From an uncultured Bacteroidota bacterium (GTDB taxonomy: Bacteria > Bacteroidota > Bacteroidia > Bacteroidales > P3), in contig CADAWR010000003.1 of NCBI GenBank assembly GCA_902791695.1, positions 1 through 64,000 on the forward strand: DNA of 64,000 nt, given 5' to 3'. The notes beneath the pieces were generated by a model. The model was not told the origin of the DNA. It made no database searches and saw only the letters and a program-made list of their open reading frames with translations. Shown here in pieces: positions 8,665-59,798 of this stretch. Position numbers and translations under genes: made by a program. The stretch's first letter is position 1; every line of letters begins with the position of its first letter.

Positions 8665-9546
8665 TTACAGCATCAACGCCACTACCTTGCGCAGCACCTG
8701 CCGCGTACCGGTAGTGTCGTATAATGTCGTCTGGACGATATACTGCCCGCGCGGGAGCACCGCCCCATTGTCGGCATGCCCGTCCCACACCAACGTCCCG
8801 TGGGTGCCTAAAAGAGCGTTGTTGAGCAACAGCCTCACACGGACACCCCGCGCGTCATAAATCTCAATCTTCGCCATCAGCGAACCGTCCTCCACCTCAT
8901 AGGTCACCTCAAGCTCGTCCTGGTAGCCATCGCCGTCAGGCGAAACAACATCGGACGAGAAGGCGAACGCACGCTCCTCGACAAGGGCCTCCATGCTTTG
9001 CGAGTTCTCGTAGCCAGGGGTGCCGTAGCCGCTCGTCGACGAAGCCGAGAACCAGTTTCCGGAATCATTCGTAGCACGTTCGAAGGAACGCCTCTCGAGC
9101 GACACCCCGGCCTTGTCACGCAGCAGGCGGCTGTGCATCGTCGGGTGATAGTCGAACCGGTCCACCACAACGCTGTCAGCAGTGCTGAGTATCACACTGC
9201 CGCCATCGTTCGGATAGGTCGGCAGCTGGCACTCAACAACCTTTGCCATATACCTGACGTTATAGTTCGCCGCAACCGAAGCAGCGTCCTTCGTCAACAC
9301 CACGTAGTCGTGCGGCCCCACGGTGTGCGTCGGCAGCGCATAATGCTTGCCCAGCGAGTCGCCGACCCACCTGACAATGTGGAAACCCGACAGCTCCACG
9401 GCTGCATCGCCGCGGTTGTACAACTCCACATATTCGGCCTCGCCGCTGAGTGGTTGGTAGAGCAACTCGCTAATTGTCAATCCATACTGCCCCGTAGCAG
9501 CAAGGCAGCACAGCATCATGGCCAAAGCAGACAGCAACCTTTTCAT
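8665..9546 (-). CDS. Secreted lamin-tail-domain protein with FlgD-like C-terminal domain
   Basis: A signal peptide (MKRLLSALAMMLCCLAATGQ) is followed by a lamin-tail domain at about 22-165 (ISELLYQPLSGEAEYVELYN, GFHIVRW, FSASSTSGYGTPGYEN). Residues about 195-293 look like a FlgD/CHU_C-type Ig domain, with VVSPDGDGYQDELEVTY and WDGHADNGAVLPRGQYIVQT. Such proteins are exported and often surface-associated in Bacteroidetes; a T9SS route is possible but no standard type A sorting domain is evident. It is a single gene, convergent with the dehydratase gene and divergent from the VWA gene, with a phased array between the divergent starts. The exact role is unknown. Confidence 0.8.
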   Translation of the reverse strand: MKRLLSALAMMLCCLAATGQYGLTISELLYQPLSGEAEYVELYNRGDAAVELSGFHIVRWVGDSLGKHYALPTHTVGPHDYVVLTKDAASVAANYNVRYMAKVVECQLPTYPNDGGSVILSTADSVVVDRFDYHPTMHSRLLRDKAGVSLERRSFERATNDSGNWFSASSTSGYGTPGYENSQSMEALVEERAFAFSSDVVSPDGDGYQDELEVTYEVEDGSLMAKIEIYDARGVRVRLLLNNALLGTHGTLVWDGHADNGAVLPRGQYIVQTTLYDTTGTRQVLRKVVALML

Positions 9547-9608
9547 ACCATAGATAACGCCGTTTTGCCGAAATAATTACTTCGCGACGCCCTTTTGCCG
9601 TCCCCCCA

Positions 9609-9729
9609 CCGTACCCGCTCCGTCTGTTCTACGGTTGTTCACCGGTTGTTCGACGGTTTTAATCGTTAAACAACCGGTGAACAACCGTAGAACAGACGGA
9701 GCGGGTAAGGTGGGGATACGGTGAAAGGG
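9609..9729. repeat. 11-bp-phased palindromic array, copy 2
   Basis: Eleven in-phase 11-mers, beginning CCGTACCCGCT, CCGTCTGTTCT, ACGGTTGTTCA, CCGGTTGTTCG, and ending CGTAGAACAGA, CGGAGCGGGTA, AGGTGGGGATA, CGGTGAAAGGG. A perfect inverted repeat with 39-bp arms (9612-9650 and 9669-9707) is nested inside, the longest in the window. It sits between two divergent gene starts, so a simple terminator role is unlikely. Confidence 0.88.
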
Positions 9730-9773
9730 TAAGAAAAAAAGCACGCGTGTGCGTGTATATTGGTTTTTTTGCG

Positions 9774-9781
9774 TAATTTTG
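9774..9781 (+). promoter_or_regulatory. Possible -7 box of the VWA-like gene
   Basis: TAATTTTG fits TAnnTTTG and sits about 20 nt before the ATG at 9804. No convincing TTTG lies 19 nt upstream, so this is a weak call. Confidence 0.4.
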
Positions 9782-9803
9782 CATTCCGAAACAGACACTG
9801 GAG

Positions 9804-11771
9804 ATGATTATTGACTACCCTTGGTACTATGTGTTACTGTGCCTTTTGGCCGGTGCGGCATACGCCGCGGCGCTGTACTTCACGGGGCGCAAAGCGTTCC
9901 CTAAGCGGCTGCGATGGCTGTTGGCGGCACTACGGTTCATTGCCGTATCGGCAATAGCGTTCCTGCTCCTGGCTCCCGTGGCCCGGCAGACGGTGCACGA
10001 GCGCCAGAAGCCCCACGTGGTGATGGCTGCCGACGTGTCGCAATCCGTGGCAGCGAGCGCCGACTCGGCATTCAGCCTTGAAGCCCTCGCCGGAGAGGTT
10101 GAAGGCAACTGCATGGTAAGCATGGAGACCTTCGGCGGCAGCGCCACCGACATCGGCGAGGTGCTGATGCGCCACAGCCACGACGACATCGCCGCGCTGG
10201 TGCTGGCCACCGACGGCATCTATAACCGCGGAGGCAACCCCGCCACCGTGGCCGAGAGGCTGCCGTTCCCTGTCTATACCGTGGCCCTGGGCGACACCAC
10301 TGTGCGCCGCGACGCCGCGCTCGCCGACCTGCGCTGCAACCGCATCGCCATGCTCGGCAACGACTACCCCGTGGAGGTCACCGTGAACGCCTCGTGGCTT
10401 GGCGGACGTAGCGCCCAGCTCACAATATCAGATGCCGGCGGCAACGTCATGCACCGGCAGAGCATAGGCTACAACGGCGACAACTTCTCGACCGTCGTCA
10501 GCGCCACCCTGCCTGCGAAGGCACCGGGGCTGCAGCGCATAACAGTGAAAATAGAGCCCATCGAGGGAGAGTTCTCGGTGCAGAACAACACCATAGCGTT
10601 CTACATCGACGTGCTGGACACACGGCGCAAGGTGGCCATCTACGCCAATGCACCCCACCCCGACCTCGCAGCCCTGAAGCGGGCCATAGAAGCCAACGCA
10701 AACTACGAGGCCACGGTGATTTATGCCTCCGACGCCAAGCCGGACACCTCCTACAGCCTTGCCATACTGCACAACCTGCCGTCGGCAACACACCCCGACG
10801 TGGGGTTTGCCAAAGAGCTGCCGCAGCTCTACGTCATAGGCCTGCAGACCGACCTTTCGCGCTTCAACGCCCTGCACAGCGGCCTTGAGATTGTCGCCAA
10901 GGTAAGCCGAGCCAACGAAGTGACCGCAGCCCACCAGCCCTCTTTCTCACTGTTCACCCTCGACGGCGACGCTACAGCCGCCATCGAGGCCATGCCGCCG
11001 CTCTCGGCCCCCTTCGGCGAGGCCCGCATGGCCGCCGAAGTGCAGTCGCTCTTCACAGCACGGCTGGGCAGCATAGACACGCGCCAACCGCTGGTCGCCG
11101 CCACGGCACAAGGCGAGATGCGCCGCGCCTTCGTATGGGGCGAGGGGCTGTGGCGTTGGCGCCTCGCCGAATGGCAGGCCGACGGCAGCCACACACACTT
11201 CGACCGGCTGGTGTCGCAGTTGGTGGCCTTCACCGCCATGCAGCAGTCGCGCAGCCGCTTGCAGGTGGAAGCCGGACGCAGCTATGCCGACGACGAGAGC
11301 CCCGTGCTCCGCGCACAACTCTACAACGAGGCCTACGAGCTCACCAATAGTCCCGAGGTGCAGCTGCACCTGACAGGCGACTCAACCGAGGCCGACTTCA
11401 CCTTCGCCCGCGACGGTGCCGCCTACCGTCTCAACCTACCCGTGCTCAAAGCCGGACTGTACCGCTACAAGGCCACTGCCGGCGACGGTCTGACGGCCAG
11501 CGGCACCTTTGCCGTAGAGGCCCTCAATCTGGAGCATCGCAGCCTCGTGGCCGACCACAGCCTGCTGCGCACCATAAGTGCCACCACAGGTGGAGAGATG
11601 CTCTACCCCTCCGACATCGCCGAGATATCATCGCAACTGAAAGCCCTGAAGCCTACAATATACAGCCACACGCGCTACGCCGAGTTCCTGAGGCTGCCGC
11701 TCATCCTGATACTGATAATAGTGCTGCTGGGGGCGGAATGGGTGCTACGCAAATACCATGGTGAACTATGA
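9804..11771 (+). CDS. VWA-like membrane protein
   Basis: A 655-residue protein with two N-terminal membrane helices (about 5-24 and 37-59) and one near the C-terminus (about 628-647), so the bulk probably faces the periplasm. Residues about 70-175 resemble a von Willebrand A domain: DVSQS fits the MIDAS DxSxS motif and LATDGIYNRGG supplies the later Asp. The middle contains beta-rich segments and a glutamine-amidotransferase-like fold is possible, but I cannot assign it. It overlaps the flippase gene by 4 bp (ATGA), suggesting co-translation. Function is not known. Confidence 0.75.
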   Translation: MIIDYPWYYVLLCLLAGAAYAAALYFTGRKAFPKRLRWLLAALRFIAVSAIAFLLLAPVARQTVHERQKPHVVMAADVSQSVAASADSAFSLEALAGEVEGNCMVSMETFGGSATDIGEVLMRHSHDDIAALVLATDGIYNRGGNPATVAERLPFPVYTVALGDTTVRRDAALADLRCNRIAMLGNDYPVEVTVNASWLGGRSAQLTISDAGGNVMHRQSIGYNGDNFSTVVSATLPAKAPGLQRITVKIEPIEGEFSVQNNTIAFYIDVLDTRRKVAIYANAPHPDLAALKRAIEANANYEATVIYASDAKPDTSYSLAILHNLPSATHPDVGFAKELPQLYVIGLQTDLSRFNALHSGLEIVAKVSRANEVTAAHQPSFSLFTLDGDATAAIEAMPPLSAPFGEARMAAEVQSLFTARLGSIDTRQPLVAATAQGEMRRAFVWGEGLWRWRLAEWQADGSHTHFDRLVSQLVAFTAMQQSRSRLQVEAGRSYADDESPVLRAQLYNEAYELTNSPEVQLHLTGDSTEADFTFARDGAAYRLNLPVLKAGLYRYKATAGDGLTASGTFAVEALNLEHRSLVADHSLLRTISATTGGEMLYPSDIAEISSQLKALKPTIYSHTRYAEFLRLPLILILIIVLLGAEWVLRKYHGEL

Positions 11772-25371: not shown

Positions 25372-25402
25372 TTTCAGAAAATCAAATTTTTCTGTATATT
25401 TG
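25372..25402 (+). promoter_or_regulatory. Promoter of the unknown gene-kamB-kamC operon
   Basis: TATATTTG at 25395-25402 with TTTC 19 nt upstream (25372-25375). A transcript would begin near 25406 and carry phased array 3 within a leader of about 205 nt. Confidence 0.6.
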
Positions 25403-25457
25403 CAGCATCGCCGCAAAAGAGCCGAAACGATGTAAAGCCGTGTGCGGCAGGATACTA

Positions 25458-25578
25458 CACCGTATCCTCTCCGTCTGTTTTACGGTTGTTCTACGGTTGT
25501 TTAACGATTAAAACCGTCGAACAACCGGTGAACAACCGTAAAACAGACGGAGAGGGTACGGAGGGGATACGGACAAAA
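25458..25578. repeat. 11-bp-phased palindromic array, copy 3
   Basis: Eleven in-phase 11-mers: CACCGTATCCT, CTCCGTCTGTT, TTACGGTTGTT, CTACGGTTGTT, TAACGATTAAA, then ACCGTCGAACA, ACCGGTGAACA, ACCGTAAAACA, GACGGAGAGGG, TACGGAGGGGA, TACGGACAAAA. The two halves are inverted repeats with a few mismatches. It lies inside the predicted 5' leader, 32 bp before the ATG at 25611. Confidence 0.85.
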
Positions 25579-25610
25579 TACATACCAACATCATAAAAAA
25601 AAACAATACT

Positions 25611-26360
25611 ATGGCAAAAGAAAAGATGACAGGGCTGCTGGTGAACGGCAGCGTGAGGACAGCAGGCGTTACCTTCTACACCAAGAACGGTAAGACCATT
25701 ATGCGCGCCGCTACGAGCAACCAGCCGCGCCGCAACAGCCGCAACCAGTTTATGGCCCGCCAGCGCATGAAACACACCACCATGCTGTGGAGCGCCTTGA
25801 AGGACAGCGACCCCATGTTCGGCGGTGCCACGAGCGCCTACAGCCGCTTCTGCACGCTGGCAAGCACCCTGCCGGTAATCTTCACTCCGCGCCAGGGCGA
25901 GTATTCCAACGCCACACTGCTGCTGCCGGGCATGCCGGTGAGCGACGGCACCCTGCCTTCGGTGAAGCAGAGTCTTGGCCGCGCCGACGGCCAGTCGGCA
26001 TTGGTGACCGAGCTTAAGCCCACCGTGCTGGGCCGCAACGAGGAGCTGCGCCTGTACTGCCTGCGCCAGACCGAGGAGAACGGCACGCCGAAGCTGCGCG
26101 TGAGCTACGCCCCGGTGCCGCGCCGCGGCGAGGGTAGCGTGGGTGGCAACACCTACAACGTGCTCACCCAGGACGACGGTACGCTGGCTCTGTCAGGCAC
26201 CTGCTTTGCCGACGACAACACGGGCTGGGCTCTGGTGCGCATCGACGGCGACCGCTGCTCGAGCCAGACGGTGGTCACCCGCTGCCGCCGCTATGAGGCC
26301 TTCACCACCGACGAGGCCATGAAGCGCAGCGCCGAAAGCTACGGCGGCCTGACTGAATAG
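25611..26360 (+). CDS. Conserved protein of unknown function, paralogue A
   Basis: A 249-residue protein of no family I can name. It is clearly paralogous to the product at 59799: both share GxTFYxxNGK, RxATSxQPxRxxRxQFxARQ, TAYSRF, VKQxLG, GTPK, QTVxTR and a final SYGGLT. No signal peptide or membrane segment is seen. The first 60 residues are strongly basic (RRNSRNQFMARQRMKH), compatible with nucleic-acid binding, and the remainder looks beta-rich. It is first in an operon, 10 bp before kamB, and a phased array occupies its leader. An autoregulatory link is speculation. Confidence 0.7.
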   Translation: MAKEKMTGLLVNGSVRTAGVTFYTKNGKTIMRAATSNQPRRNSRNQFMARQRMKHTTMLWSALKDSDPMFGGATSAYSRFCTLASTLPVIFTPRQGEYSNATLLLPGMPVSDGTLPSVKQSLGRADGQSALVTELKPTVLGRNEELRLYCLRQTEENGTPKLRVSYAPVPRRGEGSVGGNTYNVLTQDDGTLALSGTCFADDNTGWALVRIDGDRCSSQTVVTRCRRYEAFTTDEAMKRSAESYGGLTE

Positions 26361-28757: not shown

Positions 28758-29250
28758 AAGCCCCGCAAGGCGGCAGTCTTTAGCCGTGGGCGTGAGCCCA
28801 TGGAAAGCCCGCAGGGCGACAGTCTTTAGCCGTAGGCGAGAGCCCATGGAAAGCCCGCAGGGCGGCAGTCTTTAGCCGTGGGCGAGAGCCCATGGAAAAA
28901 AAGGGCATAACAAATATAAAAGAGCCCCGCAGGGGCGGCACAATACCGTTATGTGCCGCCCCTGCGGGGCTCTTTTTGGATAGGTGCCGCAATGGGTACC
29001 GCGGGCTTACGCCCACGGCTAAAGACTGCCGCCCCTACGGGGCTATTTATAATAACGCCCTGTTTCCGTGGGCTTGCGCTCACGGCTATTGACTGCCGCC
29101 CACTGCGGGGCTATTTGTAATAACGCCCTGTTTCCGTGGGCTCACACCCACGGCTATTGATTGTCGCCCAATGCGGGGCTATTTATAATAATAACACCTT
29201 GTCTCCGTGGGCTCGCGCCCATGACCAACGAACATCGCTCCCGAGGGGAT
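28758..29250. repeat. Mirror-image REP-like palindrome cluster 1
   Basis: Three direct copies on the left of a module (GCCCCGCAGGG, GGCAGTCTTTAGCC, then GTGGGC...GCCC) are followed by a central hairpin at 28921-28973 and about four copies in reverse orientation on the right. No coding potential beyond chance ORFs. Confidence 0.85.
28921..28977 (+). terminator. Intrinsic terminator downstream of kamC
   Basis: A 22-bp perfect stem (AGAGCCCCGCAGGGGCGGCA plus CA, 28921-28942, with 28952-28973) and a 9-nt loop are followed by TTTTT at 28973-28977. It is also the centre of palindrome cluster 1. Confidence 0.75.
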
Positions 29251-29315: not shown

Positions 29316-32300
29316 TTAGCGGATCACTACGATGCGCTTGGCGGGGGCGTTGCCGGCCTTCACGAGGAACACACCGCTGGTCTCAACAGTGAAGTTCTCG
29401 ATCTCGGCGGCATTGGCACGACGCTCAATGCAACGACCGTTGACGTCATAGAAGTAGATGGTCAAGCCCTCAGCGCCCTTGACGACGACATTGTTGTCGA
29501 CGCTGTAGATGCTGATGTTGCTGTAGTCGACGCTCTCGATGCCGACGTTGTCAGCCTTGAAGGTGGCAACAACGTTGAAGGTCATACCGGCCATCTCGGG
29601 CAGGACATCGATGTAGACATCGTTAGCAAGGCTTGCAGTATCGCCGTTGACGACCCAGCCAGTGAAGAGGTAACCGCCGTTGGGAGTAGCAGTGGCGGAG
29701 ACGCTCTCGCCGGGATAGAAGCGGTAGGTGCCGGCCACGGGGTTGGTGGTACCCATGACAGGATCGTTAACGCTCAGGATCACGGTGATGCTGTCGTAGT
29801 GGAGGATGGTGAGGTTGAGGATGAGGGTGCTGTCGCAACCGGCGGCATTGGTGAACATGTGCGTCGGGGCTTCGGCAGGAGTCTCAGTGTAGGTCACACC
29901 ATACCAAGTGTAGTAGTCGTAGGCTTCGATGTTGATCTCGCCCTCGGTGCTGTGGTTGACAGTGAGGTTGAGGGTCACAGTGCTATCGCAACCGGCGACA
30001 TTGACGAGTGTCACGACATCGGAGTTGTTGGACTCGGTGTAGGTGACACCGTTGAGTGCCCAGGTGTAGCTGTCGCAAGCGGTGGCCTCGAAGACACCAT
30101 TGCTGCTGTTGCGGATGGTGAGGTTGAGGGTCACGATGCTGTCGCAGCCGCTGGCAGCGGGCAGGATAACGGTGGGTTCATTGGTCGAAGCAGTGTAGGT
30201 ACCGATGACCTCATCATTGACGATCCAGGTGTAGCTGTCGCAAGCGTTCTGCTCGTCGATGCTGTAGATGGCGCCGCTGATGGTCAGGCTGAGGGTCGTG
30301 GTGCTGTCGCAACCGTTGACATCCTGAGTGGTGTAGCTGAGCTCACCGCTCTCGGTGTAGACGTTGCCGTTCCACTCGTAGCTGTTGCAGGTGGCAACAG
30401 GATCGAGGGCAACAACCTGGCTATTGTTGATGGTCAGGACCACGGTGGTGGTGCTGTCGCAGCCATTGGCACCGGTGGTGGTGAAGCTGAGCTCACCGCC
30501 CGCAGTGTAGATCACACCGTTCCACTCGTAGCTGTCGCAAGCGGCGATGGCGTCGAGGGCAACAGTCTGAGCGTTGTTGATGGTGAGGTTGAGAGTAACG
30601 ATGCTGTCGCAACCGTTGGCAGCGCCCTGCTCGATGGTGTAGGAATAGCTGCCGCTCTCGGTGTAGGTCATACCGTCACCGTTGCTCCAGGTGTAGCTGT
30701 TGCAAGCGGTCTCGTAGACGGTGTTGTACACCGGGTTGTTGATAGTGAGGACGAGGGTGACGATGCTGTCGCAACCGGCACCGGTCTCACCTTCGTAGCT
30801 CACGATGGTGCTCTCGGTGTAGGTCACATCGTTCCAGGTGTAGCTGCCGCAAGCGGTCACGTTGATGGTCTCGGTGACGCTCTCGTTAACGGTGAGGTTC
30901 AGAGTAGCAGTAGCAACACAACCCTGGTTGTTGAGCTCGTGAGTGTAGACACCGCTCTCAGTGTAAACCTCGCCGGTAACATCCCAGAGGTATTCATCGC
31001 AAACGGTCTCGGTGACGGTGACGTCAACGGGCTGCTCGATGATGGTGAGGTGCAGGGTCTCGATGGCGGCGCAGTTGTTGACATCGATGATGTCGCGAGT
31101 GTAGTCGCCAGACTCAGTGTACTCAGTGTTGTTGTTTTCAACCCAGATGTAGCTGCCGCAAGCGGTGGCGCTGACCTCGGCGTCAATGTGATTGACGACG
31201 GTGAGGTGCAGGGTCACGATGCTGTCGCAGCCGTTGGCAGCGGTGAAGGTCTGCTGGTAGTCGCCGGAGGTGCTATAGCTGGCGTTGTTCCAATCATAGC
31301 TGTCGCAGGCGGTCTCAGTGATCTCCGTCGTCACGGGCTGGTTGATGGTCAGGTGGAGGGTAACGATGCTGTCGCAACCGTTGGCAGCCTCGAAGGTCTG
31401 CTGGTAGTCGCCGCTCTCGGTGTAGGCCTGAGCGTTCCAGACGTAGAAGAGGCACTCGCTGTCGCTGAGTTCGGTGTTGACCGAGTTCTTGATGGTGAGA
31501 GCCAGCGTCGTGATGCTGTCGCAATTGTTGGCACCGGTGGTGGTGAAGATGAGCTCACCGCTCTCGGTGTAGGTCTCACCGTTCCACTCGAAGCTGTCGC
31601 AAGCGGTGACAGGAGCCTCGGCGACAGTCTGGCTGTTGTTGATAGTCAGGCTGAGGGTCGTGGTGCTGTCGCAGCCATTGGCACCGGTGGTGGTGAAGAT
31701 GAGCTCACCGCTCTCGGTGTAGGTCTCACCGTTCCACTCGTAGCTGTCGCAAGCAGTGAAGGCGTCGAGGGCGACGGTCTGGCTGTTGTTGACAGTCAGG
31801 CTGAGGGTCGTGGTGCTGTCGCAGCCATTGGCACCAGTGGTGATGAAGCTGAGCTCACCGCTCTCGGTGTAGGTCTCACCGTTCCACTCGTAGCTGTCGC
31901 AAGCAGTGAAGGCGTCGAGGGCGACGGTCTGGCTGTTGTTGATAGTCAGCTGCAGCTTGTCGATGGAGATGCAGCCACCAGCGTTGGTGTAGGTTACCTC
32001 GTGGTTACCGCTCTCATCGTAGGTGTAGGTCTCGCCGTTGCCGGGAGTCCACTCGTAGCTGTCGCAAGCGGTGACCTCATCGAGATGCTCGATGACATCG
32101 CCAACGGTGACGGTCAGCGTGACGATGCTGTCGCAACCGCTGATGCTGGTCAAGTTCTGAGTGAAGGTATACACGCCGGCGGCGGGCAGCTCTTCAGCAG
32201 TGATGTTGAAGTTGTTCTCATTGTAGCCCTGGCCGAGGCAGACGTCAGCGGTGAGCTGGATGTCGTAGGTCGGGTTGACAGTGAGAGTGAAGTGGTAGAC

Positions 32301-35300
32301 ACTGTCGCAGGTCTCGTCGAAGTGGGAGATGTATTCAGCCTTGCCAGCCTCTTCGAGGATCTGACCACGCCAAGTGTAAGGCAGCTCGCTGGCGCAGATG
32401 GTATCTTCCTCGTAGGCCTCAGGCTTCTCAACCACGGTCAGGACGAGGTAGACGATGGAGTCGCAACCAGTGAGCGAGTTGGGCATGCGGACCGAGGTCT
32501 CGATGCTCTCGCTGTAGGTGCCGATGACGCTGTCGTTGACGACCCAGGTGTAGGGCAGGCAAGCAATGGCAGAGTCAACCTTGATAACGAGGCCCTCGCC
32601 GATGGTGAGGTGCAGGGTATCAACCTGCGGGCAACCGGCGGCATTGGGTTCACCGTTGTGGTCATAGACAACAGTGATGGTACCAGGCTCATCATAGGTC
32701 ACACCGTTAATCCAGGTGTAGCTATTGCAGGTGACAACAGTCTCGGCATTGTAGCTACCGTAGTTGACAGTGAGGTTCAGGGTGTCGGTGAAGGTCTGGC
32801 AGATATTGTTGGTCGGAGTGACCTTGTAGTACTGACCAGACTCGGTAAGGGTAAGTTCGTTCCATTCGTAGCTGTCGCAAGCGGTAACAGGATCAAGCGT
32901 CTGGCCGCTCTTGACAACGTTGAGGTTCATATTGACGGTGCTGTCGCAGCCCTCAACGGTGAGGGTGTGGAGCTCGAGGGCACTGTTGCTAGTGTAGTAG
33001 TGTTCCTCTTCGCCGGTGGCAGCGTTGTTCCAAACGAACTCATCGCAAACGGTCTCAGTCGCGTCGCTGGACTTGCTGGACTTGACGGTAATCATCGGGA
33101 TAGTGATGACACTGTCGCAACCATACTGGTTCTTGGCAGTGTAGGTCACGTCCTCATAGACACGGGTCTCTTGAGCAGCGGTATTGGCAGTGTAGACGCC
33201 GGCAACCACTGTCTCGTACTCGGTACCGTTGAAGGTGTTGACCTCCCAAGTGTAGGTGTCGCAAACCTCAACATTGTCGAGTGTCGTTTCAGGGCTGCTG
33301 TGGTTGATGACCAGGTAGACACTGTCGACACTGGGGCAGTTACCCTCGGCGCTGGCCGTGTAGGCCTTACCGTAGGCACCGCTTTCAGTGAGAGTGTAGG
33401 TCTCGCCGTTGGCAAGCGTCCAGAGATAGCTCTCGCAGCTCTCGACGGGCTCAGCAACCGTACCAGTCACGGTGTTGGTGTTGCGGTAGATCGTCAATGT
33501 GAGAGTGACGGTGCTGTCGCAACCGAAGCGATCTTCGAGGTTCACAGTGGCACCACTGGTGCTCTCGGTGTAGGTACGGCCATTCCACTCGTAGCTGTCG
33601 CACTCGAAGCGGCGCTCGGTGGTGTAGCTGATCGGGTGCTGGACGACGGTCACGTAGTGTACCTCGTTGTTATCGTCAATCTGATCATAGATATAATAAG
33701 TGTGGATGTTGTCGTAATCCTCGTAATCGAGATCGATGGTCTGGTTGAAGGCAGTGTAGGTCTCAACACCAGCGCAAAGGTCGACGGTAGGATCAGCAAC
33801 AAAGTTGTTGTAGACATTGACGGTCACATGGACAATGCTGTCGCAGTAGCGAGGATTGTCGAAGTGGACATCATAGTGGTCCTCGATATCCTCGAACACA
33901 GGAGCATTATTGACGTCATAGGTCAAAGTGTAGTCGTGAGTCAGGTTACCATAGGTGAAGACACCCATGCTGACGGGGAAGTCGACCACATCTTCGCTCT
34001 CAACGTTCTGGTTCAGCGTCAGGCGCAGCATGAAGATACTGTCGAAGTCGATGATAACGCCGTTGTCATCCGTGTTAGGCTTGTTGAAGTAGGGGTTGGA
34101 GGTGATGTACTCACCATCGGTGGTCTTGTAGAGGGCGTTGTTGTTGGCAGCGCTTTCCTCGGCAGAGATCCACTGATAGGTGACACCGTTGATCCAGGTA
34201 TAGTGGTCGCATTCGACCTTGTCTATAGCCTTGAAGTAGCCGTTGCCAACCTTGATGGTGATGTTCAGGGCGCTGTCGCAACCGCTGACGTTGGTGTAGT
34301 TCTCAACGAAGAAGTGTTCACCAATGCCAAGCATCTCATAGGTGCCATCCTGCATCTGGTAGCGGTAGGAACCGTCGCTGATCCACAGCGTGGAGTCGTA
34401 GCTGTTGCTATAACCCATGGTGAGGTTCAGGGTGACGATACTGTCGCAACCGTACATGTTGGCGCCAGTCAGAGTAACATTAGCCTCGTTCTCATCGGCA
34501 GTGTAGGTCTCACCGTTGTGAGCCCAGGTGTAGCTGTCGCAGCCATGCTGTTCATCGACACCATTGGACTTCACATTGATAGTGAGCTTCAGAGTGTCGA
34601 CGTCGAAGCACTGAGCGTTATCAGCGTTCGCGCGGCTCCACTCTCCAACAGTGCTGGCAGTGTAGGTTTCACCGTTACCGGCAGTCCAGGTGTAGGTATC
34701 GCACTCGGTGAGTTCAGTAACATTGTGGACCGTGGTAGTGATGTTGTTAGTCAGAGTGACAACGCTGTCGCAACCAGTAAGCACGCTGGTGAGAGTGACA
34801 GGCTCATAGACCACGCCGGCGAAGTACCAGGTGTTGTTCCACTCGGTGCTGTCGCAACCAGTGAGGGTCTGGGTGCCGGTGATAGCGTCGCGGCGGATGA
34901 TGGTGCGGGTAGTGACCATCTCATTGTCGGTGCCGGCATAGAGTGTACGGGTGAAGGTGTTCTCACCAACAGTGCTGAGGTCGAGGGTCTCGTCGGCTTC
35001 GGTCCACTCGAAGGTGGTCTGGTCGTTGCAGACGTAGACATCATCCAGAGTGTCGTAGTTGTTCACCAGGGTAACGGTGAGGTCGACGATGCTGTCGCAA
35101 GCGCCGGTGACATCGTAATGGAGAGTCTCGTTGACAACCTTGGTGCCAGCGAAGGTCTGCTGCAGGGCGGTGTAGTCGAAGCTGTGGTCAGCATCAATCA
35201 CCAGTGTGCCGCGGCTCACGAGGAACTGGACGGCATCGGTGTTGAAGACAGCACCGTTGATGGTGAGCTGCAGGCTGTAGATCTTACCGGTCTGATCGTT

Positions 35301-38300
35301 AGTGTCGAGCGGGTTGCTGTAGACCAACGCATTGTTGTCGGTGACATCGCGGTAGAGGGCGCCGCCTTCGGCTTCCTCGTCGGTGATGGAACGATAGACG
35401 TGGCCGTTACCAACGTATTCATTGTCATCAGCCAGAGCGTTCTCCCACGTGTACTCACCGCAGACGCCAGTGACCATAACGGGAACAATCTGGTAGTGGT
35501 TCAGAACCACATGGAAGTAAGCAATACTGTCGCAACCATTTACGGTGGTCAGGTTGAAGTTGACCGTACCATCGTAGGGAGCGGAGAAGAGCTGACCGTT
35601 GAGACGGAAGTTGTCGCCAAACACAGTAGTGTCGAACGGTGCAGTCTCATTGTTGAAGCTGTTGTTGATGGTGAGGTTGATGGTAACAGTACTGTCGCAA
35701 CCATTGACAGCAGTGAAGCTCTGGCTTATTTCGCCGGAGGTGGTGTAGGTAGTACCATTCCATACAAACTCGTCGCAACGTGTGCTGTCAGTGGTGACAG
35801 TGTAGCTTTCCTTGACGGTGAGCTTCAGGGTGTCAACATTCCAGCAATCACCAGTTGCGGGCAGCTGATACTTGAAGGTGTCAACCACGCTCTCGGTGTA
35901 GCCGCTCTTACCATTCCAAGTGAAGGTGGCAAGCTCGCTCTGGCACTTGACTTCAGTATCGACGTTGTGCTGGGTGTTAATGACAGTGAGGGTCAGGTTA
36001 ACAACACTGTCGCAGGTGATGCCGTTGAGGACCTTGGTGGTCTGATAGGTGTCATCGCCAGTACGCCAGGCGCCGTTCCACTCGATGCTGTCGCAAGCGG
36101 TCAGGGCGACATTGTCGACCAGTTCGCGGTTGCGGATGCACTTGGTGGTCATAACCATCTCCTGGGGAGTACCTTCGTTCTCGACATTGTCGACGTAGAA
36201 GATCTCGTCAACAGTCTTACCGGCAGCGGCGGCGTCGCCGTAGCAGTAGTACTGGATAGCGTCAACAGTGTCGTAGTTGTACTTGAGGTTGAAGGTGTAG
36301 TAGATGATGCTGTCGCAGTAGTAGCTGCTGATAGGATAGTCGTCCTTGTTCAGAGTGTCGAGGAGACCATTCACATCCTGCTTGGCGGCCTTCTGGGCAG
36401 CGAAGTTGAACGTGTGTTTGTTGATCACGATGTTGCCATCGTTATCGAGGCGGCTCATCAGCACATCTTCGGTTCTGTATTCGACATAAGCCTCCTGGAG
36501 GGTCAGCTGCAGGATATAGGTGCTGTCGATAGAACCATCGGTCTTGTAGGTGTTGAACTCAGGATACTCGTAGACGTTGACGAGAGTGCCGTCAGCGGTA
36601 CGCTCCTTGTAGTTGATGATCGGATTGACACGCTCACCAGCGGGCACCCAAGTGTAGGTCTTGCCGTTACGCCAGGTGTAGTCACCGCAGTTGACAACCA
36701 CTTCCTCAAAGAGGATGCTGTTGTTGACAATGAGGTGCAGGCGATAGGTGCTGTCGCAATGGTTGGCGGCGCCACCCTCGACGAGGGTCTCGATGATGCC
36801 ATCGTAAGGAGCATTGTAGAGTACATTATTATATGTATAGGAACCGCGGTTCTCAATATACTCATCCTCCTTCACAACAGAGTTGTTGATGGTGATGTTC
36901 AGGGTCATAACGCTGTCGCAGCCGTTGACGCTGGTGAAGGTATGGTTGGCAACGGTGCTCTCGGTGTAAGGACCACCGATAATAGCATCGCCGTCCGTCC
37001 AACTGTAGCTGTCGCAAGCAACGACGTTCTCGGTGATATTGTAGACCGGGTTGATGGTGAGGGTCAGGGTGATGACACTGTCGCAACCCTGAGCGTTGGT
37101 AGCGGTGTAGGTGTACTCGCCGCTCTCGGTGTAGGCAGTGCTGTTGACAACCACATTCTCGTACTGGCCGCTTGTAGTATTGAAGCTGCTGACGGTCCAA
37201 GTGTACTCGCCGCAAGCCTCGTCACTGGTGGTGCCAGCGTTGCTGTGGTTGAGGGTCAGAGCCAGGGTAACGGTGCTGTCGCAACCATTGAGGTTGGTGG
37301 TAATCCAATCATAGTTGCCGTCCTCGTCGTAGCTCTGTCCGTTGCCGGTCGTCCAGGTGTAGCTGTCGCAGACATTAGTAACGGTGACTGTCTCGGCGGT
37401 GTTGCGGTTAACAGTGTAGTACATCATAGTGTCGTTGCCAGCGTTGTTGGAGCGCTCATAGACGCCGTTGTAGGCGCCATCGCCAAGCACGGGATTGATG
37501 ACAAAGCCGTACTGGGTGGTGAAGGGCATCTCGTTTTCGCAGATGACGATGGGCTCAGCCACGGTCAGGTGCAGCACAACGACGCTGTCGCACTCGTCTT
37601 CAGCGGAAGCAACATAGTAGATACCGTCCACACTCTCGGTATAGGTGCGGCCGTTGATCCAAGTGTAGTCCTTGTTGGTCAGCACATACTGGTCAACAAG
37701 CTGACGCTGCTTGATAACGTGGCGGAAGACAGTCACGGAGTCGCAGCTGGTGACAACCGACTGACCGGAGGCCACGCTGTCGTCGACATAACCATCGCGG
37801 TAGGTGACACCATTGTAGGTGTAGCTGCCGCACTCGATAACCTCTTCGATACCGTAAGCCTTGTCATAGTAGCTCAGGTTGAGGGTGGTGATACTGTCGC
37901 AACCGTAGGCTTCGCTCATGTTGGTCACCTGGTCGGTGTAGTCGCCGAATTCGTTGAACTCATGGCCATTGGCATCCCAAGTGTAGGGCTCGCAAACACC
38001 CACGACGAGGTTCACGTTCAGCGTGGGATTGACAGTATAGTTGATAGTAACAAGGCTGTCGCAGCCGGCGGCGGTGGTCCAGTAGGCTGACTCGGTGCCG
38101 CTATAAGGCTGACCGTTGAGGGCCATAATGTGCAGCTCAACGCTCTCTTCAGCATTGTTGGGGTTCACATAGGTGTAAGCGTTGTTCGTGAACTGGCTCT
38201 CGCAGAACACCGGATCGTCAACAACATTGTAGACGGGGTTGACGGTCAGCATGAGGGTGCTGTCGATGGAGCAACCGGCGGCGTTCTTCGTGGTGGTGGG

Positions 38301-41300
38301 CACGGTGTATTCGTACTCGCCAGCCTCAAGATTGCTAGTAACGGTGCTCCAGTCGCGGATAGAATATTCTGCGGTACCCTGGCAGATGGCGTCGGTGACG
38401 GTCACCTCGGTCGGATACTTGGCAGTGAAGCGGAGCACCTTGATGGTGCTGCAGCCAAACTCGTTCTGCACCTCCTGCGACAGGATGGTGTCGCTGGTGA
38501 TTTCATGCCACAGCGCGGTGTTGCCATCCTGGGGATACCAGGTGTAAGGCACGCACTCGCTCATGCGAACGGTCTTGTGCTCAGAGTTGCGGATGGTAAG
38601 GTTGATACGGGTCCACTGGTCGCGGCCGGTCTGGGCGTTGCGGGTGCGGCGTTCGACCTGACCACTTTCACTAATGTACTCGCGCACGAGGCTGCTCTCG
38701 CAGGTCTCGTCGTTGAAGGTCACAACATCGAGGAAGAAGTTGTCGCACTCGGTGCGGTTGACCCAAGGCAGAGTGTCGGTGACAGGGTTCAGCACCAGGC
38801 TCAGGACGGCGATGCTGTCGCAACCGGCGACATTGGGCTCGTCGAGCTTCTTGGTGATGTTGGCATCGGGAGCAACGGAGGTGTTGTAGGTCACACCGTC
38901 GATCCAGGTGAAGCTCCTGTCGGTGGTCACGCAGTGGAAGTCGGTACCATAGGTGGTATAGTTCACAGTGAGGTTCAGGGTGACGGTGGAGTCGCAGCCG
39001 TACACGTTGGCACCCTCGAGGGTGAAGGTGGCGGTATTGTTGCTCTCGGTGTAGGTCACACCGTCAATCCAGGTGTACTGGTCGCAGCTGGCCTGCTGGT
39101 CGACACCTTCGTTCTTATAGTTCACCGTGAGGGCGAGGGTGACGACACTGTCGCAACCGTGGACGGTGGCGAGGGTCTTCTGGTAGTCGCCGCTCTGGGT
39201 GTACTCGTCACCGGTGAGGGTCCATGTGTATGCGTCGCACACAGTCATGGGAACGGTGGTAGCCTTGACGGGATAGACCGTCAGGTGCTGCACCTTGTTC
39301 ACCGGGCAGGTGTTGCTGTTGTCAATGTAGCTGACCTCGGCAAGCTCGGCAGTGGCGGTATAGGTGGTGCCGCCCCAGTTGAACTCGGCGCCCTCGCAGT
39401 ACTCAGCAAAGCTGTTCTCCGTGGGCATGGCTTCGATGCTGAAGGTCAGGTGCACGGTGCTGTCGCAGCCGTTGACGCTGGTGAAGGTGTAGTCGTACTC
39501 ACCCTCGCCGTTGATGGTGTTGTCACCCCAAGTGATGGGGAGCATCTCCTGGCAAGCGCTGCGCTCGGCGTTGACATCATAGACGGGATAGACAGTGATG
39601 TTGGCAGTGGTGAACTCGTTGACGCAGTTGTTCTGGTCGGTCACCGTCAGGGTGTAGGCACCGCCGACGGTGGGATTGAGCTCGACCACAGCGGTGGTGG
39701 CACCGGTGTTCCAGCTGTAGCTGTAGTTGGCGTTCTCGGTGGCAGTCAATGTCAGGGCGCTACCGGAGCAGAGAGCAGTGGTGCTGGTGCTCAGCTCGAC
39801 CACGGGCAGAGCGTTGACCGTCACAGTATGCTCGGCGGTAACCTGGCAGTTGGTGGTCTCGGTGGTGGCGGTGACAGTGTAGGTAGTGGTCTGTGCGGGC
39901 GTCACGGTGATGCTGGTGCCGGTTTGGCCGTTGCTCCAGCGGTAGGTGGCGGGCACATTATTGGCGTCGCTGACGGTGAGCGTGACGCTCTGGCCGGCGC
40001 AGACCTCGGCATCGCCGCTGATGCTCAGGGCGGGCACCGGCGTGGTGTTGACGGTCAGCGTGGCGGGCAGCGAAGCGCAGTTGTAGGTGTTGTCGGTGGC
40101 AACGAGGGTGTAGACGTTGGTAGCATCGGCGGGCTCCACAGTGATGGTGCCGTCGGTGAGCTGGTCGTCGTTGTTCCACACATAGCTCACACCGGTCATG
40201 TTGCTACCGGCAACGAGCTCGAGAGCCTTGCCCTCGCAGTAGTCGTTGATGGTGTTCTCGGTGCGGCTGTTGATGGTGGCCACAGGGGCGGGGTGCATCT
40301 GCAGCGAGAGGTTGATGACAGAGTCGGCGCCGGTGACCGAGTGCAGGGTCACCACGGTGTTGGTGGTGGCGGTGAACTCCTCGGTGGTGGTGCCGTCGGT
40401 CACAGTGTAGGTCTCGCGCTCGCAAATCTCGCCCGCGACTTCTATAATATAGTCAGGATTCAGGGTCAGGTTCAGCGTATATCTGACACTGTCGCAGTCG
40501 GCGACGTTCTTGACCACATGCTCGTACGTGCGGTAGGCAGCTTCGGGGGCAACGGTGTACTCGATCGCGTCGTTGACCAAGGTACCCTCGGCGTGGTTGG
40601 TGTAGGTCTCGCTGAAGTTAGCGTCGGCGATAGCCCAGGTATAGGTGGCGTTGGCCACTGCCTCTTCAGCTGCATGTTCGTCAACAGCCGGGCAGACATA
40701 GCTGATCTGAGGATAGTCGGCAGCAAAGTCGATGGCGTTGGCGTTGTGGTTCAGGAACACCACGGTGACGGGGCCGTCGTTGACCCAGTCATTGCTGGTG
40801 CTATTGGTGAAGGTGTAGGTGGTGTAGGTATTGGTCGTAGTGCGAGTCTCAGCAGGCTCGGCGGCGCGGGTAGCGCCCATGCCGTAGTAGAAGCTGACGC
40901 TGGGGGTGACAGTGTTGCTCAAGTTGCATCTGTAGCTGAGGCTGACCATCTTGCCAGGCTCGGTGGGATACTCGTTGACGCGCAGGAACACCGACTTGAC
41001 CTCGGACTCGTCGCCCAGGTTCAGGGCCTTCACGCCGAAGGCATAGTCGGTGTTGGCGGTCATGCCGGTGATGGTGGCGGTGTTGCCGTTAACCACAGCG
41101 GCGGGAGTGGTCTCGGCGGTGAGAGCCTGGCCGTTCAGCACAACGCTGTAGGTCTCGGTGCCGTTGTTGCGATCGTCGGCCTCCCAGGTCAGGGTGGCGC
41201 CGGTGGCGGTGATGTTCTCAGCCGTCAGAGTGGTGGGGGCGAAAGCAGCGGGCTCGGTGGTGAAGGTGATGATCTCGGTCTCCTCGCTGTTGTCGAGGGC

Positions 41301-44300
41301 GCAGACGCTCTGACCCTTCACATCATAAGCCTTTCTGGGCTGCAGGTTCTCGATAGTAGTGGAGGTCTCAGTGGTCTCGATGGTCGTCCAATCGCCGGCG
41401 GGAACAGTCTCGCCCATCAGGATGTCGTCGATAGCAACACCATAGCCATAGCTATCAGTCATCTTGAAGCCAATCTGGCAACCGGCAGCGTATGCGCCAC
41501 TAGGCATCGCTACACTGAGTTCAGTCCAAGTGGCGTGCGCTTCAGTGGTGGCGAAGATTTCGTTCCACTCACCTCCGTTGATGCGGTAGTAGACACCAAA
41601 AGCATCTATATCACCACTCCACGAGCGGTTGATATACCACATATTGAGATTCAATCCACTCTTGTCGCTTAAATCCATGGACGGAGTGACAAGATAGGTC
41701 TCATTGCCGTTGGAGGAATGTGTTATCTTTGCATTTTTAGTACCGCTGTGTGCACCGGTAGTATTGCTGTAGTCGCCGGTTGCGACCGTCCATGTACCAG
41801 GGCCTTCGGTAGTCCAGCCGTTGGGCATGGCACCGTCTTCAAAACCAGCATTGATGCCATCCACATACTCGGCATCACGGTAGCTGATGATGTAGCTGAG
41901 GTTCTTAACAGAACCCTGGTTCCACTCGACACCGGCACTGGTGGCGGTCACACTGTTATCAGTGATGGCCAGATCCGTGAGAACCGGGCACTTGGCCTCG
42001 GTGGTGAACTCCACCTTGTTGCTCCAAGCGCTCTGACCGTCAACGCCGCCGCAGTTGGCGCGCACCTTCACGGTGTAGGTGGTGTTGTCGGTGAGTTCGG
42101 TGAGGGTGTAGGGGTTGGTGGTCACGTCGATGAGGTTGTTCTCGTCGTCGTTGAGGCAGAGCTGCCAAGCGGTGGCGCTGCCGTTCTCGGTCCAGCTCAG
42201 CTCGACGCTGTTGGTGGTGGGCTCGCCAGCGGTGAGGGCTGTGGGAGCGAAGCAGGCAATGCCTGTGGTGAAGCTGACGATGTTGCTCTCGTCGCTGGTG
42301 CCGCTGGTGCACTCGCCGACTACCTTCACCTGATACGAAGTCTCGCCAGGGAGGTTATTGAACGTATAGGTTTGGGCAGTGGTGGTGCGGCTGTCGTCCC
42401 AGCTGGAGACACCGGCAGAAATCACGATGTCGTCCACATAGAAGCAGTCGTCGCCGCCATTGACAGAACCATCTTTCTTATATCTCCACGAGAAGGTATG
42501 CTGTCCGGGTTCAACATTATAGGAATAATTGTCAAAAGAGGCACTGTTTACAAACTTATTTCCTTGCTGTACGCCGTCAATGTAGAAGGTGCCGTAGTCC
42601 CAATCGTAGCTTTGATTGGTTTGCTCCGAAGAACATCTTGCGGCAAAACTAATTGTAGCAGCATTGGCCAAATCAATCGTTATGGCAAAGGTCGAAGTAG
42701 AACTGCCGACGTTGTAATTACCGCTCTTTATACTGAAACCATCACTGTTGGCAGCGGCATCCGTCACAACCCAAGGATAGGTGGCGTCGTTTGTAAAGAG
42801 GGTGCCGAGGTCATTGAGGTCGCCAGCTGCGAAGTGTGCATCAACAGGCTTGTACTCTTCACCTATAATAATAGTATATGTATTGGCGTTGCCGGTCCAG
42901 TTGATGGTGGCAGCGTGGGCGGTGACGCTGTTCTCGTCGAGGGTCACCACGGGAGCCAGACAGTTGGCCTCGGTGGTAAACTCCACCTCGTTGCTCCAGA
43001 GGCTGACGCCGTCAATGCCGCCGCAGTTGGCGCGCACCTTGACGGTGTAGGTGGTGTTGTCGTTGAGACCGTCAAGGGTGAAGGGGTTGGTGGTCACGTC
43101 GATGAGGTTCTCCTCATCGCCGTTGAGACAGAGCTGCCAAGCAGTCTCCTCAGCACCAGCGGTCCAGCTCAGCTCCACGTTGGTGGTGGTGGGCTCACCG
43201 GCAGTAAGTGAGGTAGGAGCCGGGCAAGCAACGAGGGTTGTTACAGTGAGACCAAGGGGTGCACTCTGGCCATCCTCGGCGCCGCAGTCGGCGACAAGGC
43301 TGATACTATAAGTGGTCTCGCCGGCCAAGCCGGTAATGTTGACAGTGGGGCTGTTCACGGTGATGGGATCCATGCCGCTGACAGTGATAATCCACGAAGT
43401 CTCGCTGGCAGCAGGCGTCCAGCTGAAGGAGACCTCATGGGCTGTAACGACAACCGAATTCATGTCGATATTGTCGAACGGGACAGCGGGGCAGGCAATC
43501 AGCGTGGTGAAGTCGGCAACGTCGGACCACTCGGTGGTCGTGCTGCCGCAGATACCCTGCACCTGGACAAAGAACTTGGTCTCGGCATCCAGGCCGTTAA
43601 ACACGAAGCTGTTGCCGGTGGCTGTGGTTGTGATCCATTCGCCGCCGGGGACAGTAACCTCTATGTCGTCGATGAAGAGATAGAATGCATCGTTATACAC
43701 ATATTTGATTGCGAAACGCTTGGTTCCAGCGGGGAGCGTCAACTCGTACATCTGCCAATCCAAAGAGGCAGTGACGATATCGCCATAGGTGAACGCGTCA
43801 GGGTCGGTGACAGTCTCGTCGGTGGTGTAACCGACATAGAACTGCTCGTCACCATAACTGTCGGAGTATTCTTTATAGTAGAAGCTCAGGGTGGCACCGT
43901 TCTCGGTACCGTTGAGCAGCGGGGATATCAGGGAACCATTCTGTTCACTATAGTTGAACGTGAAGCCATAGGAGCCGGTACGTTCAGGGCCGCCTGTCTT
44001 CACACCAGAACTACTGCTTGACAGATTTGCAATCCAGCCATCGGGCAGGGAACCCGACTCGAAGCTTTCGGAGAGGCCTTCAAAGACCTTGTAGCGCACA
44101 TTGTAGCTGTCGCTGAAGCCCGTCCAGCCGAGGGTGGCTCCGTGGGCGGTGATGTTGCCGACGGTCAGCTCGTAGGGTACGGGGCAGTCGGAAGTTGTGG
44201 TAAAGGACTGCACGGTGCTCCAGTCGCTCTGGTCTGAGCCAGAACAGTAGGCACGCACCTTCACGGTGTAGGGGGTCTCGGCGGTGAGGCCGGTGATGGT

Positions 44301-45044: not shown

Positions 45045-45308
45045 AATGTTTTGTTTTTTGGTTAATAAAATTTGTTTGTTATACATTTTGTTTTTTTTCG
45101 CCTATATTTTATTCTCGCTATATTTTTTTATTTTTAACATTTCGTCGCGTCTATATATTACATATTTATGCAGCCAAAAAATACGGAGTATAAGTCCCCC
45201 ATAGATAATATACTGTCAAAAACATGCACGTTCTTCACATCATATCTTCCGCTCTTTCAGCCTATTATATATATCACCCACACTTTTCACCCGCACAATA
45301 CTGTCCTG

Positions 45309-45338: not shown

Positions 45339-45478
45339 GAAAATTTCAACAAAATCGCCACCACGTCGTTCCGCACCCCCACTCTTGCCTGCGGCCACCC
45401 CTCCCGAGGGGTGGAGCCGCACTGCCCGCCGACAGTCGCCACCCCCACCACTGCGGCGCCAACGACGCCACGCCTCCC

Positions 45479-45610
45479 CTCCGTACCCGCTCCGTACCCG
45501 CTCCGTCTGTTCACCGGTTGTTTAACGGTTTTTTGTCGGAGGGGGGTCGGAGTGGGGACGGAGCCCGGACGGAGGGAAGGCCGGGGGTAAGCTAGGGGGT
45601 AGCTAGGGGG
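45479..45610. repeat. 11-bp-phased array, copy 4 (palindromy largely lost)
   Basis: Twelve in-phase 11-mers: CTCCGTACCCG twice, CTCCGTCTGTT, CACCGGTTGTT, TAACGGTTTTT, TGTCGGAGGGG, GGTCGGAGTGG, GGACGGAGCCC, GGACGGAGGGA, AGGCCGGGGGT, AAGCTAGGGGG, TAGCTAGGGGG. The period is kept although the two halves no longer pair well. Confidence 0.82.
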
Positions 45611-45620
45611 TAATTCGGAG

Positions 45621-45890
45621 AAGCCCCGTAGGGGCGACAGTCGTTAGCCGTGGGTAGAGCTCACGGTCAATGGCCGTAACCGTCGGTAAATGAGCCCCGC
45701 AGGGGCGACAGTCGTTAGCCGTGGGCGTGAGCCCACGGTCAATGGGACGTAACCATCGGTAAATGAGCCCCGTAGTGGCGACACTTCACCGTTTTGTGCC
45801 GCCCCTGCGGGGCTCGGTCTGGTGGGGGCCGTTTCGGGTACCGTGGGCTCATGCCCACGGCTAAAAACTATCGCCCTTTACAGGGCTAAA
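45621..45890. repeat. Mirror-image REP-like palindrome cluster 2
   Basis: Two direct modules (GCCCCGYAGGGGCGACAGTC, GTTAGCCGTGGG...CACGG), a central imperfect hairpin (45765-45815), then one inverted module. Same design as the clusters at 28758 and 47824. Confidence 0.82.
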
Positions 45891-48037: not shown

Positions 48038-48093
48038 AAATGACGGCCACGTCCCCTTTTACCGTGGGCTCACGCCCGCGGCTAACGACTGTC

Positions 48094-48334
48094 GCCCTTA
48101 ACAGGGCTTTTTTTTTACGGTCACTCCCCTTTTTACCGTGGGCTCACGCCCACGGCTAACGACTATCGCCCTTAACAGGGCTTTTTATGATGTCCACGCC
48201 CCTTTTTACCGTGGGCTTACGCCCGCGGCTAACGACTGTCGCCCCTAAAAGGGCTTTTTTTGATGTCCACGTCCCCTTTTACCGTGGGCTTACGCCCGCG
48301 GCTAACGACTGTCGCCCCTAAAAGGGCTTTTTTT
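48094..48334 (+). terminator. Series of four short terminator-like hairpins
   Basis: Four units with a GCCCTTAACAGGGC or GCCCCTAAAAGGGC stem followed by five to nine T residues end near 48116, 48186, 48261 and 48334. Each is the 3' part of a reversed REP-like module. Together they could block read-through into the glycan operon. Confidence 0.6.
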
Positions 48335-59610: not shown

Positions 59611-59650
59611 CAAGCATGCCGAACCGGCCGAAGGACCGCACCTCGACTGT

Positions 59651-59760
59651 AGATGCACCATAGTTTGACCATAATGAATGGTTGAAGGATGGTTAAACTA
59701 TGGTTAAAGTATGGTTAAACAGGCGAAGGATGGGCGGAAGCAAGGCGAAGGATGGGACAA
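59651..59760. repeat. 11-bp-phased array, copy 5 (divergent sequence)
   Basis: Ten in-phase 11-mers: AGATGCACCAT, AGTTTGACCAT, AATGAATGGTT, GAAGGATGGTT, AAACTATGGTT, AAAGTATGGTT, AAACAGGCGAA, GGATGGGCGGA, AGCAAGGCGAA, GGATGGGACAA. The left two units are inverted relative to the ATGGTT units (CATAGTTTGACCAT versus ATGGTTAAACTATG). Period and mirror layout match arrays 1-4 but the bases differ. It ends 38 bp before the ATG at 59799. Confidence 0.8.
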
Positions 59761-59798
59761 GGAATCATACCTGCAATAAACAACTAAAGTCAATACAT

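Follow-up and report, generated by a model that had tools for sequence, protein, structure and literature searches.

Five 11-bp phased arrays in the window

The window, i.e. the whole stretch of 64,000 nucleotides analysed here, is part of contig 3 in a draft genome that totals 2.17 Mb over 37 contigs (G000, hereafter the source genome). It carries five tracts with a period of 11 bp, two of which precede paralogous genes. The features are as follows.

149-281, no strand: array 1, type A, dispersed copy (phasing, lag-11 scan)
9598-9729, no strand: array 2, type A, dispersed copy between divergent ORFs (phasing, lag-11 scan, fold)
25395-25403, plus strand: promoter-like motif TATATTTGC, upstream of array 3 (sequence; similar layout at 30 of 44 homologous loci)
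25458-25578, plus strand: array 3, type A, gene-linked, presumed leader of the P0001 gene (phasing, lag-11 scan)
25611-26360, plus strand: P0001 gene, 249 aa, proposed reader of type-A units (family searches, DUF6266 profile match, co-variation)
45476-45612, no strand: array 4, 11-bp phased, type-A-like units on the left, no clean mirror (phasing, lag-11 scan, fold)
59634-59763, plus strand: array 5, TTTAACCATAG-type unit, gene-linked (P0002), not dispersed (phasing, locus search)
59799-60518, plus strand: P0002 gene, 239 aa, paralogue of P0001 with 46% identity (sequence comparison)

The original prediction divided the five tracts into consecutive 11-mers without slip, and this was borne out in every one of them. 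The window was scanned at lags 5-60 with a segment threshold score of at least 14, leaving out the repetitive ORF at 29316-45086. Lag 11 gave five segments (149-281, 9598-9723, 25460-25595, 45476-45612 and 59678-59719), which are the same five tracts, and none after local shuffling (mean 0 in five shuffles). The runner-up lags 24, 36 and 48 gave three segments apiece. Tandem Repeats Finder reported a period of 11 in 5/5 tracts.

Array 1 lies upstream of a polysaccharide-export gene (496-1323) and of that gene's promoter-like motif. Array 2 sits between divergent starts, as predicted, with an ORF at 8665-9546 on the minus strand and another from 9804 onward on the plus strand. Its dyad falls between 9659 and 9660, and folded as RNA it reaches −88.2 kcal/mol (z −13.4), with no shuffle equally good. 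A mirror-image layout had been proposed for arrays 1-4. The perfect arms of array 2, given as 39 bp, are present when read by eye, but array 4 has no clean mirror (RNA fold z only −3.8) and is absent among the at least 40 type-A places listed in the source genome. Array 5 is phased as described, but the locus search placed its lag-11 span at 59634-59763 rather than 59651-59760; its unit, ATGGTTAAAGT by Tandem Repeats Finder, is other than the units of the other arrays.

The exclusions made on first inspection held. The arrays are not a CRISPR, because their units are contiguous and without spacers, and they are not coding. Nor are they simple terminators: the ORFs flanking the 40 type-A arrays described below occur in all orientations. 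A terminator or promoter role was rejected more generally, since no sigma-70-type site was found in 9500-9900, the two short terminator-like stems in this interval both lie outside array 2, and there is no orientation bias. A viral origin was likewise rejected, as viral contigs held neither an exact match to an array stretch nor a homologue of P0001.

The window contains other repeats as well. Rfam 15 gave five matches over the gathering score, none of them at the arrays; matches to Acido-Lenti-1 RNA (RF01687) at 28999-29044, 45693-45738, 48062-48108 and 48136-48182 represent other dispersed repeats, and the Acido-Lenti-1 matches of the window form tandem rows of about 46-73 bp. The ORF at 29316-45086 (minus strand, 5256 aa) has many internal repeats of about 150 bp.

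The P0001 gene family and the units upstream of its members

Besides P0001 and P0002, the genes preceded by arrays 3 and 5, the source genome encodes two further P0001 paralogues, both with an upstream 11-bp array of other units. Neither P0001 nor P0002 matched Pfam, NCBIfam or PHROGs. With P0001 as the query, 21 of 61 genomes gave a homologue; all 21 belong to this genus, and the 24 genomes tested from other families gave none; a profile search found a family member in 81 of 120 genomes of the genus. The named homologue records are metagenome-assembled Bacteroidales, many labelled as rumen or gut of ruminants.

Scanning the species genomes returned 47 loci, of which one weak match (L109) was excluded. 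For the remaining 46, the lag-11 score in the 350 bases before the gene was compared with the maximum of 200 letter shuffles. An array above shuffles precedes 45/46 homologues, L101 being the one that fails, and 38/46 pass a stricter lag-11 score. Lag 11 was the best lag in 41/46; the others gave 22 (three loci), 33 (L101) and 7 (L065). A later set gave 31/31, 7 of them redundant with the earlier set, and the first set 23/29. The six misses of the first set comprise two genes cut wrongly (L043, L052), three contig ends (L045, L047, L049) and one truly weak array (L059). The control bases were taken from these 46 loci with the gene and 420 bases upstream of it left out; they contained a single lag-11 segment in 237,240 bases by the stricter score, and on this count the idea that such arrays are a general habit of these genomes was rejected. 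Period 7 is the commonest lag in the flanks of L063-L108, with 24 segments in 237 kb. An ungapped palindrome scoring at least 16 lies on the array in 32/46 loci (counted from the listing), and one subgroup, that of L034 (L098-L104), is 11-phased yet not palindromic.

AlphaFold2, run with 46 sequences, predicted the P0001 protein with a mean pLDDT of 89.6, weaker over the first 40 residues. The predicted fold consists of a beta hairpin (20-33) and a helix (44-66) followed by mostly beta structure. Foldseek found no match for this model in the Protein Data Bank at E ≤0.001, and the family profile gave just two matches against Protein Data Bank sequences (E 1.5 and 1.7). Among viral models Foldseek found one uncharacterised protein, A0A8S5RM31 (E 2.5e-6). 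In our reading, the invariant residues include no obvious catalytic acid or histidine set.

Comparison of the P0001 family with DUF6266 (Pfam PF19781) by hhalign gave a probability of 88.7 and an E of 2.5e-6 over residues 14-155. Judged by this profile-profile match, the P0001 family is a divergent relative of DUF6266. The likeness extends to the arrays: 16 of 32 tested DUF6266 genes have an upstream lag-11 score above shuffles (five doubtful by eye) and 13/32 pass the stricter score, while the other 16/32 have no array above shuffles. DUF6266-linked arrays also occur outside the genus. The P0001 family differs in falling below the cut-off of the Pfam model, which matched 0/23 members even at E 10; the sole Pfam match among these 23 was LPD28, in one member, at E 0.23. 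DUF6266 is present in 19 of the 31 genomes searched, with eight matches in the source genome, and was found in none of 14 control genomes. It is strongly expanded in G001 (39 matches), G004 (24) and G002 (18). No paper on the function of DUF6266/PF19781 was found in the open-licence literature.

Across the gene-linked arrays the units share the frame TTnnnCnnTnn and vary between members within it; weak arrays lean towards this frame because the unit finder itself favours it. For the co-variation analysis, 65 aligned proteins were reduced by 15 redundant ones to 50 with less than 90% identity, and by eight with poor units to 42. The top co-varying pair was residue 49 with unit position 5 (z 7.3), followed by residues 36, 38 and 39 with letters 2 and 3 and residue 25 with letter 10. 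Three rules were read from these pairs. According to rule 49, A or S at residue 49 goes with A at letter 5, Q or N with C, and others with T; according to rule 38, E38 pairs with G at letter 3; and according to rule 25, K25 pairs with T at letter 10. In the 42 training arrays, rules 49, 38 and 25 fitted 38/42, 42/42 and 37/42 cases, respectively.

The rules were then applied to a hold-out of 31, less 7 redundant and 6 without a confident unit, leaving 18 with less than 90% identity to the earlier set. The letters under test were set neutral in the unit finder, 3/18 had been seen earlier with the training fit, and L360 was excluded from the rule tests, its upstream region being too short. The fit was 13/18 for rule 49, 18/18 for rule 38 and 16/18 for rule 25, with permutation p-values of 1e-4, 5e-5 and 0.0016 from which ancestry is not removed. 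For rule 49, A/S went with A in 7/7, and all five misses were Q with T. A tree-aware scan of 2034 tests, with the tree for co-change built from residues 70 onward, gave p 3e-4 for 49 x 5 and 1.3e-3 for 25 x 10. The best pair, 36 x 3 (p 9e-6), was the only one to survive Bonferroni correction, and the top 20 pairs showed no enrichment in residues 20-60 (6/20, p 0.12). After tree correction, the co-variation is thus weak to modest. Rule 38 may reflect plain inheritance, because the seven E38 proteins of the training set group together on the tree.

Dispersed copies and their positions

The palindrome of array 2 was found at no fewer than 40 places in the source genome, each matched on both strands; this is a lower bound, as 40 of 140 candidates were scored. 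The 40 type-A arrays studied comprise three in the window and 37 further stretches; 39 are dispersed and one is gene-linked. Whether other genomic copies keep the 11-bp phase had been named as decisive by the original prediction, and they do: all 40 have a dyad and mirrored 11-bp units. The conserved core is about 130 bp long and made of 11-mers. The sequence is highly conserved as far as about 50 bp from the dyad on each side, and conservation tapers off by about 75 bp, with no edge; neither sharp ends nor defined terminal inverted repeats were found among the 40 arrays. Outward of the core, C-rich units run on at the left and G-rich units at the right. Over the central 110 bp, 38 copies have 78-90% identity to the gene-linked array (median 85%). 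By crude ORF calls, 19 of the arrays have tandem flanking ORFs, 8 divergent and 8 convergent ones, with 5 undetermined; the arrays therefore favour neither side of genes. For the remaining three P0001-family genes of the source genome, no dispersal of the array was seen, with one match each plus three weak matches.

Contigs 3 and 9 start near-identically around an array at equal offset (L003 and L007), and one of these two copies may therefore be a duplicate; a duplicated region or an assembly break at the repeat may be the cause. Contigs of G025 also start inside arrays.

The positions of promoter-like motifs separate gene-linked from dispersed arrays. TAnnTTTG is the −7 promoter element of Bacteroidetes, and we take the motif TATATTTGC upstream of array 3 to be such an element. 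Within 120 bases upstream of the gene-linked array it occurs at 30/44 loci (1.8 expected), and between array and gene at 1/44. Gene-linked arrays thus mostly lie downstream of a promoter-like motif and therefore in the gene's own leader. For dispersed type-A arrays, the motif lies between the array and the outgoing gene in 17/48 cases (1.8 expected; crude gene calls) and faces through the array in 3/48. From these positions, transcription probably covers the master array, i.e. the gene-linked one, but not most of the copies, and this argues that the copies have a role at the DNA level.

An unlikely alternative is that the protein binds the RNA hairpin of its own leader and controls translation, the dispersed copies being by-products. 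Eleven base pairs also make up one A-form RNA turn, the tracts form strong RNA folds, and gene-linked arrays are located downstream of the motif (30/44, against 1/44 in between). On the gene sense strand, G-U pairs in the palindromes exceed A-C mismatches by 98 to 61, an excess that would be expected of an RNA hairpin and is not decisive for it. However, the palindrome by itself accounts for the hairpin energy, which the other strand equals, palindromes are absent from the L034 subgroup, and dispersed arrays lie mostly outside leaders by the same motif (17 vs 3 of 48) and keep the full array.

Dispersal is not restricted to the source genome. A combined query of eleven gene-linked arrays of relatives, with 39 candidates scored in each, gave at least 78-81 matches each in G023, G029, G025, G012 and G008. 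Fewer were found in G019 (25), in G002, G024 and G022 (10 each) and in G010 (1). Among the matches listed, those of G012, G029, G023 and G025 fall on the arrays of the genomes' own genes, with two types in G025. In the recently spread types of G012 and G023, the match between dispersed copies and the master extends along about 100 bp, in many copies above 95%. G041, a genome of another family, has three DUF6266-linked arrays with 54 matches, at 28 places of at least 50 bases including the three gene-linked ones. The arrays of G041 had no matches in G048, whose own arrays were outside the query.

The positions of dispersed arrays were compared between species. Two sites, L149 and L170, precede a DHH-domain gene (recJ-like) and a GATase gene (guaA-like), respectively. 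They carry type-A units in the source genome, G019 and G097 (in G097 at L149 only). Units of the G023 type, TTCTTCAGTAG, are found at both sites in G023 and at the L170 site in G008, and G001 has no array at the recJ-like site, which is apparently empty. Both flanks are common to 18 sites when the 40 listed for the source genome are compared with the 40 listed for G097. In the comparison with the 39 listed for G023, which are of the other type, 10 sites share both flanks and four share one; the chance overlap of 39 sites is estimated at about one or two, assuming at least 1000 intergenic regions.

In 20 further genomes per site, chosen from search matches, a lag-11 segment precedes the recJ-like gene in 12/20 (14 by a looser rule) and the guaA-like gene in 9/20 (9 by the looser rule), with many different units across genomes. 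Eleven of the 45 recJ/guaA regions match one of 35 gene-linked arrays, 8/11 best within their own genome; such own-genome matches in G025, G091 and G073 reach 95-98% over 94-110 bases. The other three of the 11 are the guaA site of G008, where the G023 array matches slightly better than that of G008, and two cases that match over 26-27 bases. The remaining 34/45 regions, many of them without an array, match none of the 35, a subset of the paralogues. Positions therefore recur between species while units switch, in several cases to the type linked to the species' own genes.

Different types at the same sites, the apparently empty site in G001 and intergenic copies without orientation bias would also be expected if the arrays were passive MITE-like palindromes moved by an unrelated transposase, with the gene as a favoured landing site. 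We regard such a hot-spot element as quite unlikely. Arrays with differing units are carried by 45/46 homologues, the units are predicted by residues of the protein, and Y1 transposases, the class searched, were not found in the source genome. The arrays have no sharp ends, and the lack of defined terminal inverted repeats sets them apart from MITEs.

Conserved positions, and the frequent location of arrays just upstream of promoter-like motifs, would alternatively fit a regulon in which dispersed arrays are operators kept by selection on their neighbours, each site co-evolving stepwise with the protein. This is very unlikely in our view: the orientation of flanking genes is as by chance, with eight convergent sites, and the match to the master over some 100 bp exceeds what separate operators need. 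A stepwise change of about eight units at dozens of sites also seems improbable.

A putative protein-array system and its relation to known repeats

We propose that the arrays are rows of predicted binding sites for P0001-family proteins that have been copied and rewritten over the chromosome, and assign this reading, drawn from sequence comparison, a probability of about 0.6. The N-terminal beta hairpin and first helix (about residues 20-60) would read one 11-bp unit, and several protein molecules would bind side by side, about one helical turn apart, in two runs of units of opposite orientation that meet at the dyad. Binding at the leader would control the protein's own gene. Copies of the master array would settle at a set of permissive intergenic positions, and a change of the leading array type would bring in copies that replace the arrays already there. 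At the DNA level, the dispersed copies might anchor the protein to the chromosome, or might be passengers. The initial suggestions of a multi-site operator, of a nucleoid or replication-linked element and of a mobile palindrome would each be right in part, the leader array probably being bound by its own product and the copies being dispersed.

At even odds, we extend this proposal to DUF6266-like proteins as a whole. They would then be sequence-specific DNA-binding proteins of a new class whose residue-to-base code can be read, every one associated with an 11-bp array of its own. The leading array type would be copied over conserved positions and whole populations of sites rewritten in step with the protein, so that protein and sites evolve in concert in bacteria without a known transposase.

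Iterons and similar arrays are phased repeats read by a protein encoded alongside. The present arrays differ from these in having dozens of copies per chromosome and species-specific units, and no replicon function is indicated.

In RAYT (TnpA-REP) systems, according to excerpted accounts, a gene with cognate palindromes nearby is accompanied by many dispersed extragenic copies (PMC3116915, PMC8266576, PMC8049555). The P0001-type gene resembles this with its adjacent palindromes and dispersed copies of the same type, a likeness confined to some arrays, as 3/4 in the source genome are not dispersed. The P0001 family differs in having no HUH/Y1 transposase: Y1_Tnp was found neither in the source genome nor in the P0001 protein, and the control was positive in 5/14 known genomes. 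Further differences are the core of about 130 bp made of 11-mers, compared with short REP hairpins with a conserved GTAG tag, the presence of multiple paralogues in one genome, and the change of units between species at a shared position. Type-A units (CCGTAG) and TTCTTCAGTAG do contain the letters GTAG, which other types, e.g. TTGTCCGCTTG, lack. The system works like a RAYT-REP pair but is not one, because there is no Y1 transposase in the source genome.

BrickBuilt of Porphyromonas gingivalis is, in the excerpted description, a MITE with a minisatellite of 23-nt units, a leader and a tail, present in 19 copies in one strain (PMC4596501). As far as that description goes, it shares with the present arrays spacer-free intergenic tandem repeats in Bacteroidales and is set apart by its unit length, against 11-bp units in mostly mirror-symmetric arrays here; it names no linked reader gene.

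No earlier report of this array-protein system was found among open-licence papers, and it looks like a new kind of protein-plus-repeat system. If the proposal is true, the reading of 11-bp units would be the first function for DUF6266 and its relatives, and the natural series of protein-site pairs would offer a binding code that is readable from genomes and testable. It raises the questions of how dozens of dispersed 100-bp sites at kept positions acquire other units, and whether the cell benefits, by chromosome anchoring, or the arrays alone.

Two side observations concern array sequences. At about 215035-215125 of contig 6 of G097 (L225), one G023-type array lies amid type-A arrays, possibly the first arrival of another type in this genome. 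In the palindromes, the outer unit CCG[T/A]CTGTT tends to have the same T/A state in both halves (L140, L142, L144, L149, L154, L158, L160 and others). Half pairs were 19 TT, five AA, four TA and two AT (Fisher p 0.014), as if the two halves had been mutually corrected at this unit.
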